DNA from: Streptomyces akebiae
Lineage (GTDB): Bacteria; Actinomycetota; Actinomycetes; Streptomycetales; Streptomycetaceae
DNA length: 64,000 nt
Direction: 5' to 3'
Assembly: GCF_019599145.1 (NCBI RefSeq)
Contig: NZ_CP080647.1
Location: 5,890,001-5,954,000 of the forward strand
Part shown: positions 18,330-42,592 of the stretch, piece after piece
Layout: each line of letters begins with the position of its first letter
Numbering within the stretch: position 1 is the stretch's first letter
Program-made: the position numbers and the translations under genes
The notes under the pieces: generated by a model
What the model was told of the DNA's origin: nothing
Database searches by the model: none
Seen by the model: only the letters and a program-made list of their open reading frames with translations

Positions 18330-18355
18330 GGAATTCTGTCCTGATTCCAGTCGTT
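18330..18355 (+). promoter_or_regulatory. SigR-type promoter of hrdD
   Basis: GGAAT (18330-18334), exactly 18 bases, then GTT (18353-18355): a full match to the SigR (thiol-stress sigma) consensus GGAAT-N18-GTT. The start would be about 18360-18363, giving a 100-base leader. I recall hrdD being reported as a SigR target in S. coelicolor. Confidence 0.85.
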
Positions 18356-18461: not shown

Positions 18462-19460
18462 ATGGCAACCCGTGCCGTCGCCGCTCGTCGTTCGTCCGCC
18501 TCCGGCCGGACCGACGCGGCTCGCAGCGTTCGCGCCTCTGGCGGCGAGATCGCCGACCGCGACCTGGTCGGCATGTACCTCGACGAGATCGCGCGCACAC
18601 CGCTGCTCGACGCCGCCAAGGAAGTCGAGCTGTCCCAGATCATCGAGGCGGGTGTGTTCGCGCAGCAGATCCTCGACGGCGAGGAGGAGCCCAGGGCGGA
18701 CGCCACCCGCGACGAGCTCGAAGCCCTCGTCGCCGACAGCGAGCGGGCCAAGGACGTCTTCATCCGTTCGAACCTGCGCCTCGTCGTGGCTGTCGCCCGG
18801 CGGTACCCGCGCAGCGGCCTGCCCCTGCTCGACCTGATCCAGGAGGGGAACGCCGGCCTGGTCCGCGCGGTGGAGAAGTTCGACTACCGCAAGGGCTTCA
18901 AGTTCTCGACGTACGCCACCTGGTGGATCCGTCAGGCCATCACCCGTTCGATAGCGGACCAGTCGCGCACCATCCGGCTGCCCGTCCACCTCGTGGAGGA
19001 GCTGGGCCGGATCCGCCGTGTGCAGCGCGAGTTCAACCGCGAGCACGGGCGCGACCCCGAGCCCGCCGAGATCGCCGCCGAGCTCGGTTCCAACGCGGAC
19101 CGCGTCAGCGACGTCCTCGACTGGGCCCGTGACCCGGTCTCGCTGAACATGTCGGTGGACGACGACGGCGACACCCAGTTCGGCGACCTCCTGGAGGACA
19201 CCTCCGCGGTCTCGCCCGAGCAGTCCGTGCTGACGCTGCTGCGCAGCGAGGAGCTGGACGGTCTCATCGGGCGCCTCGACCAGCGCACCGCGTCCATCAT
19301 CAAGATGCGGTACGGCATCGAGGACGGCCGCGAGCGCACGCTCACCGAGGTCGGCAAGGAGCACGGTCTCACCCGTGAGCGGATCCGCCAGATCGAGAAG
19401 CACGCCCTGCTCGAACTGAAGAAGCTCGCCCGCGACACCGGCTTCGACGCCGCCGCCTGA
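18462..19460 (+). CDS. hrdD: RNA polymerase sigma factor HrdD (group 2 sigma-70)
   Basis: 332 residues, the length I recall for S. coelicolor HrdD. Region 1.2 DLVGMYLDEIARTPLL, region 2 RLVVAVARRYPRSGLPLLDL then KFDYRKGFKFSTYATWWIRQ, region 3 with HLVEELGRIRRVQREF, and region 4.2 LTEVGKEHGLTRERIRQIEK are all present. The large non-conserved N-terminal extension of the principal factor HrdB is missing, which supports HrdD over HrdB. The ATG at 18462 follows AAGGGAG. A SigR-type promoter lies 107 bp upstream. Expected role: alternative primary-like sigma, non-essential. Confidence 0.93.
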   Translation: MATRAVAARRSSASGRTDAARSVRASGGEIADRDLVGMYLDEIARTPLLDAAKEVELSQIIEAGVFAQQILDGEEEPRADATRDELEALVADSERAKDVFIRSNLRLVVAVARRYPRSGLPLLDLIQEGNAGLVRAVEKFDYRKGFKFSTYATWWIRQAITRSIADQSRTIRLPVHLVEELGRIRRVQREFNREHGRDPEPAEIAAELGSNADRVSDVLDWARDPVSLNMSVDDDGDTQFGDLLEDTSAVSPEQSVLTLLRSEELDGLIGRLDQRTASIIKMRYGIEDGRERTLTEVGKEHGLTRERIRQIEKHALLELKKLARDTGFDAAA

Positions 19461-35119: not shown

Positions 35120-35207
35120 GGACGGAAGCCGCTTGGAAGCGCTCACGCGGCGCGAGCACCACGCGGCCGCACACGCGATGCGGCCGAAGCGCTACGCGGC
35201 CGAGGTG

Positions 35208-35534
35208 CTACGCGGCCGAGGTGCTGCTGGTGGAGGAAGAACCCGAGGACGACGACTTCGCGTCGGAGGACGACGAGGACGAGGACGACGTCGAGGACTT
35301 CGCGTCCGAGGAGGACGAGGAGGACTTCGACGTCGCCGGGCTGCTGCTCGACGACGAGCCCCGGCTGTCGTTCCGGTAGAAACCGGAGCCCTTGAAGACG
35401 ATGCCGACCGCCGAGAACACCTTCTTGAGGCGGCCGTTGCAGCTGGGGCACTCGGTCAGGGCGTCGTCGGTGAACTTCTGCACCGCTTCGAGGCCCTCAC
35501 CGCATTCGGTGCACTGGTACTGGTACGTCGGCAC
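35208..35534 (-). CDS. FmdB-family zinc-ribbon protein (Ruc-like redox chaperone candidate)
   Basis: 108 residues from the GTG at 35534 with AGGAGG upstream. The N-terminal zinc ribbon has two Cys pairs, YQCTECG and CPSCNG, then the FmdB-type GIVFKGSGFYRND. The C-terminal 50 residues are almost only Ser with Lys/Asp/Thr, hence disordered. This is the plan of M. tuberculosis Rv0991c (Ruc), reported as a redox-regulated chaperone. A CIRCE operator overlaps the 5' region, which supports a heat-shock role. The chaperone function here is inferred. Confidence 0.88.
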   Translation of the reverse strand: MPTYQYQCTECGEGLEAVQKFTDDALTECPSCNGRLKKVFSAVGIVFKGSGFYRNDSRGSSSSSSPATSKSSSSSSDAKSSTSSSSSSSSDAKSSSSGSSSTSSTSAA

Positions 35535-35545
35535 TGGTCTTCCTC

Positions 35546-35572
35546 CTGGCACTCTCACTCGATGAGTGCTAA
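35546..35572 (-). promoter_or_regulatory. CIRCE element (HrcA operator) upstream of the FmdB-like gene
   Basis: CTGGCACTC, nine bases, GAGTGCTAA. The right arm is a perfect CIRCE half-site (consensus TTAGCACTC-N9-GAGTGCTAA); the left arm matches 7 of 9. It abuts the AGGAGG ribosome site of the minus-strand gene, so HrcA binding would block transcription or early elongation. Confidence 0.85.
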
Positions 35573-35603
35573 CGACGGTCCATAGTGACCTATTCCCCGG
35601 GGA

Positions 35604-36893
35604 TCAGTCCACTGTCACCGGCACTCGGTGACCGACGACACGCGCGACGGTCCGGCTGCGGGGGCTGCCCGCCAGCCGCGTACGCAGGGCGAACAGGGTC
35701 GCCAGGGCCAGTGCCGTACCGGCCGCGGGCACCAGGAATCCGGCGCCGGTCCACAGCCGGTCCTCCAGCTGACCGGCGGCCGTGACGGCGGCCGCCTGGC
35801 CGAGCGCGACCGCGCCGGTCAGCCAGGTGAAGGCCTCCGTACGGGCGCCGGACGGGACCAGGGAGTCGACCAGCGTGTAGCCGGTGATCAGGGCGGGGGC
35901 GATGCACATCCCGACCAGGAGGCCGAGCGCCGCGAGGACGAGCACGGAGTCCGCGGTCCACAGGGCGGATGCGGCCAGCGCGAGAGCCGTGTAGCCGATG
36001 ACCAGACGCCGCTGCGGGGCCGCCTTCCAGGCGATCGCGCCGCAGACGATGCCGGAGAGCATGTTGCCGGCGGCGAACACGCCGTACAGGACACCGTTCA
36101 GGCCGGGCTCGCCGATCGACTCGGAGAAGGCGGCGAGGGAGACCTGCATGCCGCCGAAGACGGAGCCGATGCCCAGGAAGGTGACGATCAGGACACGCAC
36201 TCCGGGGACGGACAGGGCGGAAACCCGCTCCACGCGCGCGTGGGCCACGGGAACGACACGGGGCTGGGTGCCGCGCTGCGCGGCGAACAGCAGGCCGCCG
36301 ATCAGGGTGAGCGCGGCCTCGGTGAGCAGGCCGGCGGCCGGGTGCACGGCGGTGCACAGCGCGGTCGCGAGCAGCGGGCCGAGGACGAAGGTCAGCTCGT
36401 CGGTGACGGACTCGAAGGCGGCCGCGGTGCTCATCAGGGGCGAGTCCTGGAGCTTGACGCCCCAGCGGGCGCGCACCATGGGGCCGATCTGCGGCACCGA
36501 GGCCCCGGTGGGCACGGCGGCGGCGAAGAGCGCCCACAGGGGGGCGTCCATCAGGGCCAGCGCCGTCAGGGAGAGGCCGGCCGCGCCGTGGACGAGGATG
36601 CCGGGGATCAGGACGGCCCGCTGGCCGTGCCGGTCGGCGAGACGGCCGCTCCAGGGGGCGAACAGGGCCATGGAGACGCCGGTCGCGGCGGCCACGGCGC
36701 CGGCCGCGCCGTACGAGCCGGTGGTGTGCTGGACGAGCAGCACGATGGAGAGCGTCAGCATCGCGAACGGCTGGCGGGCCGCGAAGCCGGGCAGGAGGAA
36801 CGTCCACGCGCCACGGGTGCGCAGCAGCTGCCCGTAGCCCGGACGGGACGCCTTGGAGGTGTTCGAGGTGTTCGAGGAGACCGTGGATGCCAC
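35604..36893 (-). CDS. MFS transporter
   Basis: 429 residues from the GTG at 36893 (AAAGG eight bases upstream). An in-frame ATG at 37061 would add 56 Arg/Pro-rich residues that look like promoter sequence. Twelve membrane segments; the loop WSGRLADRHGQRAVLI is a motif A variant, and FGGMQVSLAAFSESIG starts the second half. It resembles sugar-efflux or YcaD-type MFS proteins; the substrate is unknown. An inverted repeat, CTCTG...CAGAG, lies upstream at about 37019-37035. Confidence 0.88.
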   Translation of the reverse strand: MASTVSSNTSNTSKASRPGYGQLLRTRGAWTFLLPGFAARQPFAMLTLSIVLLVQHTTGSYGAAGAVAAATGVSMALFAPWSGRLADRHGQRAVLIPGILVHGAAGLSLTALALMDAPLWALFAAAVPTGASVPQIGPMVRARWGVKLQDSPLMSTAAAFESVTDELTFVLGPLLATALCTAVHPAAGLLTEAALTLIGGLLFAAQRGTQPRVVPVAHARVERVSALSVPGVRVLIVTFLGIGSVFGGMQVSLAAFSESIGEPGLNGVLYGVFAAGNMLSGIVCGAIAWKAAPQRRLVIGYTALALAASALWTADSVLVLAALGLLVGMCIAPALITGYTLVDSLVPSGARTEAFTWLTGAVALGQAAAVTAAGQLEDRLWTGAGFLVPAAGTALALATLFALRTRLAGSPRSRTVARVVGHRVPVTVD

Positions 36894-42498: not shown

Positions 42499-42592
42499 AG
42501 GTAGCTCCAGTATTCTTCGTAATCGGCTCATATGAGAACGAATTCATCGGAGCCACAGATTCCGTACAAAGGCGCCGGATATGGTTCCGCCC

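Follow-up and report, generated by a model that had tools for sequence, protein, structure and literature searches.

A CIRCE operator overlapping a SigR-type promoter upstream of a ruc-like zinc-ribbon gene in Streptomyces

The ruc-like gene and its upstream region

In a 64-kb window of the Streptomyces akebiae genome (the whole stretch of DNA that was analysed) we identified a ruc-like gene on the minus strand (35208-35534; GTG start codon at 35534, stop codon at 35208-35210) which encodes an FmdB-family zinc-ribbon protein of 108 amino acids. The product matches Pfam family PF09723 (56.6 bits; cut-off 34.4) and NCBIfam family TIGR02605 (73.4 bits; cut-off 31.3). An earlier reading made from the letters of this DNA (the sequence-only reading) had described two cysteine pairs and a serine-rich tail, and both are present. 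The cysteine pairs are C8/C11 and C29/C32, and the presumably disordered tail (residues 59-108; 35211-35360, minus strand) contains 33 serines in 50 residues and no cysteine. All four cysteines are kept in 275 of 280 loci, and the hydrophobic fraction of the 280 tails has a median of 0.000. The tail sequence itself varies between species and therefore gives no clue to the clients. An AlphaFold model of the protein (mean pLDDT 60.3), with three strands in the N-terminal part and a tail without secondary structure (pLDDT about 51-56), is too weak to support claims on the fold, and a search of solved structures by sequence profile gave no match at E 0.1. The start codon is GTG in all 78 sampled genomes of the genus. 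A mechanical list of open reading frames also offers a GTG at 35558 (116 amino acids), which was rejected as the start because it lies within the operator described below and the alignable protein begins at 35534.

An MFS-like gene on the same strand ends 69 bp upstream of the ruc-like gene (Val-Asp-stop, 35604-35612, minus strand), so that operator, promoter and ribosome binding site are all contained within 69 bp. The operator is a CIRCE element, CTGGCACTC-N9-GAGTGCTAA, at 35546-35572 (minus strand; full letters CTGGCACTCTCACTCGATGAGTGCTAA), which along the gene reads TTAGCACTC-ATCGAGTGA-GAGTGCCAG. Compared to the consensus TTAGCACTC-N9-GAGTGCTAA it has two mismatches (CAG for TAA), which are located in the gene-proximal arm and lead into the Shine-Dalgarno sequence AGGAGGA (35541-35547, minus strand). 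The sequence-only reading, which had placed a CIRCE over an FmdB/Ruc-like zinc-ribbon gene and let it abut the ribosome site, is confirmed in the first point and slightly sharpened in the second: the first two bases of the Shine-Dalgarno sequence are the last two of the CIRCE. A perfect SigR-type promoter, GGAAT-N18-GTT, was missed in that reading. Its -35 element GGAAT (35592-35596, minus strand) is separated by 18 nt from the -10 element GTT (35571-35573, minus strand), the two T of which also open the CIRCE, and it agrees with the SigR consensus GGAAT-N18-19-GTT as given in passages of PMC9205884 and PMC2375139. No plain sigma-70 promoter was found when 35150-35700 was scanned.

CIRCE sites and SigR-type promoters in the genome

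With up to three mismatches allowed, the site at 35546-35572 is the sole CIRCE in the window, and the same search on 100 dinucleotide shuffles of the window gave no matches. When 227-nt tiles of the window were scored on both strands, two tiles reached 16/18, two reached 13 and the remainder 12 or less; the two 16/18 tiles are one per strand, as expected for a single site. An alignment of upstream regions of the Streptomyces group (128 loci, of which 127 distinct, one labelled Kitasatospora; Mangrovactinospora, Actinacidiphila and Streptacidiphilus excluded) was used to follow the individual positions. Both CIRCE arms are invariant in 127/127 distinct upstreams, including the two deviating bases and the gene-proximal arm as a whole (read along the gene), which the sequence-only reading had called the left arm and whose conservation in relatives it had put forward as a test of its proposal. 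The Shine-Dalgarno sequence is invariant as well, and the 9-nt CIRCE spacer has a pairwise identity of 0.747. A chance palindrome was rejected on the shuffles, the tile scores and the invariance of the arms while the spacer drifts. By column consensus, the spacer repeats the right half-site (GAGTGA-GAGTGC), which would place right arms both 3 nt and 9 nt away from the left arm; the repeat is lost in some divergent species.

The promoter elements are held in register with the operator. In 121 of the 127 distinct upstreams GGAAT is found at exactly -24 and GTT at -1 relative to the CIRCE, and the pairwise identity of the -35 box is 0.963 compared to 0.788 for the 18-nt promoter spacer. Within this spacer (35574-35591, minus strand), the stretch CActATgGA is kept in most Streptomyces-group upstreams, above the other spacer positions. 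The distal flank above the SigR box, which is mostly the coding end of the MFS gene, has a pairwise identity of 0.660. Two conserved blocks in this flank, GTGGACT and GGTCACCG, correspond to the final codons of the MFS gene (Val-Asp-stop) and thus provide no evidence for a promoter; they were rejected as a second promoter, being coding DNA.

The search for further CIRCE sites which the sequence-only reading had proposed identified five beyond the ruc-like gene, bringing the 10.5-Mb genome to six places (up to three mismatches, each place found on both strands; one in the reversed control). Two are located at groESL, two at groEL2, one at hrcA-dnaJ and one at the ruc-like gene. GroES, GroEL2 and HrcA (340 bits; cut-off 197) score over their family cut-offs, and the first GroEL and DnaJ were labelled by our own reading. 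The sequence-only reading had noted that HrcA/CIRCE is classically a groESL operator in Streptomyces. At both groE promoters the operators are paired, at distances of 20 nt (L001, 1454-1527) and 9 nt (L002, 1501-1563), in contrast to the single CIRCE of the ruc-like gene. One groES copy carries a GCAGTC half-site variant, which is also the form found at the ruc genes of a number of other actinobacterial families.

The groESL, groEL2 and hrcA sites further differ from the ruc site, which has the same operator, in having no SigR-type box nearby: GGAAY-N16..20-GTT was not found on the coding strand near any of the other CIRCE sites of the genome. The composite motif GGAAT-N18-GTTNGCAC, in which a SigR-type promoter is joined to a CIRCE half-site, occurs once in the 10.5-Mb genome, at this locus, and is absent from the reversed-genome control. 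The genome encodes one SigR (SigH_actino; TIGR02947, 359 bits; cut-off 251.6), and its gene is adjoined by the gene for RsrA (TIGR03988, 105 bits; cut-off 62.5), the only protein over that cut-off.

Conservation across Streptomyces, its class and its phylum

The N-terminal 58 residues of the protein were matched in 147/150 genomes of the genus, 291/296 of the class and 183/198 of the phylum, the class and phylum samples including some genus members. Upstream regions were collected for loci L009-L288, and the gene start was found in 280/280. The CIRCE score was at least 13/18 in 225 of these upstreams and 10 or less in 55, while among 1400 shuffled upstreams (2-mer block shuffles, not exact dinucleotide shuffles) two reached a score of 14 and five a score of 13. 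GGAAT-N17..19-GTT was present in 143/280 upstreams compared to 1/1400 shuffles. For the group counts, CIRCE was called at a threshold of 13/18, and among 30 added loci two scoring 11 and one scoring 12 were accordingly counted as lacking it. The samples are non-random: that of the genus consists of the 30 best matches, 20 from the weak end and 28 from other searches, and that of the class took better-matching families first and then 30 genomes mostly of weaker-matching families.

All 78 loci of the genus sample carry the CIRCE and 75 carry the SigR box, in every case in the same phase. In the other families of the class, CIRCE was found in 75/98 loci, and 32 of the 39 families have it in one or more loci; in each of two families (f72 and f80), all four sampled loci lack it. 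In the other classes of the phylum it was found in 8/54 loci, one of which just reaches the threshold score of 13. Among named records, some of which are from the same species, 77/80 carry it. With CIRCE missing in 23/98 class loci and 46/54 loci of other classes, the link between HrcA and ruc is not universal. A match to hrcA was obtained in 70 of 72 genomes searched (69 over the cut-off). The two genomes without a match (G234 and G172) are both devoid of a CIRCE at ruc; many genomes without a CIRCE at ruc nonetheless have hrcA. The SigR box beside the CIRCE is narrower in its spread than the CIRCE itself: GGAAY-N17..19-GTT occurs within 200 nt in 19/98 non-genus class loci and a SigR box 24-30 nt before the CIRCE in 8/98.

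Relation to Ruc of M. tuberculosis and proposed regulation

In a mycobacteria-like genome the gene order is rimJ, moeA, galU, 5-formyltetrahydrofolate cyclo-ligase, ruc and mscL, with genes nearby that we take to be mprAB-like. The M. tuberculosis order is moeA-galU-5-formyltetrahydrofolate cyclo-ligase-ruc-mscL; synteny was checked in the mycobacteria-like genome. In the window, the same genes (rimJ, moeA, galU, the cyclo-ligase and mscL) flank ruc, together with moaC and mogA. Unlike the mycobacterial order, the Streptomyces neighbourhood is interrupted by genes for MTAP, an MFS transporter and a K+/H+ antiporter, and also by a penicillin-acylase-like gene and a SAF-like protein (the labels moaC, mogA, MFS, SAF and acylase are our own reading). 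The protein is 63% identical over 73 residues to its positional counterpart in the mycobacteria-like genome. A second FmdB protein of the same genome (G000:C1:7300874-7301020; L294 6794-7021, minus strand; 75 amino acids; TIGR02605, 57 bits) has a GGGGGCCGGGCCG-type Cys/Gly tail and lacks the FKGSGFY motif, the serine tail and a CIRCE (best 9/18), which indicates that the ruc-like gene and not this paralogue is the counterpart of Ruc. The paralogue adjoins a gene which we read as encoding a DedA-like membrane protein. Orthology of the ruc-like gene to M. tuberculosis Rv0991c (Ruc) is thus well supported by gene order and sequence, and the protein plan which the sequence-only reading had recognised matches.

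According to passages of PMC7448276, HrcA represses and SigH induces M. tuberculosis ruc via overlapping sites, and oxidised Ruc prevents aggregation whereas reduced Ruc does not, the tail being required; this agrees with the description of Ruc as an HrcA-controlled, redox-regulated chaperone in the sequence-only reading. Both proteins combine an N-terminal zinc ribbon (C8/C11/C29/C32) with a disordered hydrophilic tail, the tail sequences being different, and at both genes an HrcA operator, predicted in Streptomyces, overlaps a SigH/SigR-type promoter. The predicted Streptomyces layout is a repetition of the overlap reported at M. tuberculosis ruc, with differences in detail. In Streptomyces two bases of the -10 GTT also belong to the CIRCE, while in 4/6 mycobacteria-like loci of family f3 the GTT ends just before it; GGAAT-N18-GTT directly abuts the CIRCE in L045-L047 and L056 and overlaps it in L063. 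In Streptomyces the distance from the beginning of the CIRCE to the start codon is 36-39 nt, and the element extends into the Shine-Dalgarno sequence; in the six f3 loci this distance is 50-55 nt. Hsp33 (HslO) is likewise described in PMC7448276, in the part consulted, as a four-cysteine zinc protein that is activated by oxidation; the sequences are called dissimilar there, and it works alike but is not a member of the family.

We propose that the gene is the Streptomyces ruc and encodes a holdase with a disordered tail that is locked by HrcA, driven by SigR, held inactive by zinc and released by oxidation, an explanation to which, as a whole, we assign a probability of roughly 0.78. Regulation by the predicted HrcA and SigR sites is well supported at the level of sequence, and the claims of the sequence-only reading on regulation and FmdB/Ruc family stand, given the conserved CIRCE and the Rv0991c counterpart. 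In unstressed cells, HrcA bound to the CIRCE would cover the SigR -10 element, the start region and the edge of the Shine-Dalgarno sequence and keep the gene off. Heat or misfolded protein would withdraw active HrcA and free the operator, as in the established biology of HrcA at groESL, and thiol oxidation would free SigR from its anti-sigma factor RsrA to drive the promoter. Oxidation-responsiveness, which had been proposed from analogy alone, gains sequence evidence from the SigR-type promoter overlapping the CIRCE. HrcA would then be a lock common to the chaperonins and SigR a drive that, by motif, is unique to ruc among the HrcA targets of the genome. In passages of PMC7448276, an M. tuberculosis hrcA mutant contains much Ruc already at 37 C and heat adds further, suggesting a dominant HrcA lock with a SigR boost and not strict AND logic. 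Most of the first CIRCE arm would be missing from a transcript that begins at the SigR start, which suggests that the CIRCE acts as a DNA operator and not as a leader hairpin. No unusual leader fold was computed, and a leader hairpin acting as RNA thermometer was rejected (longer leader z -0.73, shorter z +1.74; nothing beyond the palindrome). By analogy to the M. tuberculosis protein, the product would carry one zinc on its four cysteines and be inactive when reduced; oxidation would expel the zinc, upon which the protein with its serine-rich tail may hold unfolded clients and aid refolding by DnaK. Since a heat-repressor site and an oxidative-stress promoter are joined at this gene, the chaperone is probably produced upon protein damage by heat or oxidants.

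That the gene is controlled by HrcA and SigR and encodes a zinc-ribbon protein with another function, such as metal buffering, RNA or ribosome binding or transcription, is unlikely. Zinc ribbons are versatile, the databases name the family FmdB family zinc ribbon, regulatory or transcriptional regulator, the tail sequence varies, and chaperone activity is known from the M. tuberculosis protein only in the parts of the literature consulted; against this stand the identity to the mycobacteria-like positional counterpart, the same four cysteines and disordered hydrophilic tail, and an operator shared with groESL in the same genome. We consider it still less probable that HrcA alone controls the gene and that GGAAT-N18-GTT is unused, the transcript coming instead from a different promoter or from transcription that continues out of the MFS gene, whose end on the same strand lies close enough for this. 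Such a reading would fit the other families of the class sampled, in which the CIRCE usually stands with no SigR box beside it, and the second start site 19 nt upstream that is reported for M. tuberculosis ruc in passages of PMC7448276. It is countered by the exact N18 spacing and -24 phase in 75/78 genus genomes, the conservation of the -35 box over its spacer, the negative sigma-70 scan, the similar layout of mycobacteria-like loci, and the value of 40.3 +/- 12.2 for Rv0991c in a table of SigH-dependent genes (PMC4803200, in part). A palindrome that arose by chance or was inherited and is unused, in favour of which the two mismatches to the consensus could be cited, is very unlikely at the sequence level, since the mismatches of the gene-proximal arm are themselves invariant and the arms stay fixed over a drifting spacer.

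Beyond the single locus, we think it probable that ruc is an old actinobacterial member of the HrcA regulon, beside groESL, groEL2 and hrcA, and that in Streptomyces its operator, a SigR promoter and the Shine-Dalgarno sequence have merged into a single switch within the 69 bp between the genes. Judged by motif, nowhere else in this genome would the sites of the heat repressor and of the thiol-stress sigma factor share bases. HrcA targets reported in M. tuberculosis are groES, groEL1, groEL2 and Rv0991c (passages of PMC7448276 and PMC8223512), while for Streptomyces only groES/EL1 and groEL2 are named in the consulted part of a 2009 S. coelicolor paper (PMC2687793). The main-text passages of this heat-shock array paper do not name the ruc-like gene, its list of 119 heat-induced genes being supplementary. 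A tentative S. coelicolor locus tag (SCO318x) gave no match in the main-text literature searched, PMC2687793 included, and SCO31 gave none in the main text of PMC9205884, whose list of 71 SigR targets is supplementary. SCO3162 is an earlier SigR target whose motif overlaps coding sequence (PMC2375139, in part). Titles and abstract openings on FmdB and Streptomyces do not concern the ruc-like gene, and our search found no literature joining FmdB and HrcA, a result that falls short of proving that none has been published. What is newer here is how widely HrcA and ruc are linked in Actinomycetes, and that the SigR and CIRCE sites overlap across the genus Streptomyces. A further conserved HrcA target encoding a likely redox-activated holdase would tie the repressor of the chaperonins to the thiol response under SigR, and Streptomyces would offer a harmless and genetically easy host for study of the Ruc family. 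In M. tuberculosis, a ruc mutant is reported to show no strong loss of virulence in mice and no increased sensitivity to several oxidants in vitro, as far as the consulted parts of the literature go.

Two further SigR-type boxes were observed in the window. GGAAT-N18-GTT occurs once more at 18330-18355 (plus strand), 132 nt before a sigma factor gene (18462-19460, plus strand) whose product matches sigma-factor families of NCBIfam, with no specific family above its cut-off, and which we take to be a group-2 sigma factor gene, hrdD. The box before this putative hrdD is in effect a positive control from the same window, hrdD being a known SigR target (PMC9205884, in part). In addition, GGAAT-N19-GTT is present at 42537-42563 (minus strand) and ends 5 nt before the ATG (42531) of the gene for 5-formyltetrahydrofolate cyclo-ligase; a SigR transcript from this box would have almost no leader.
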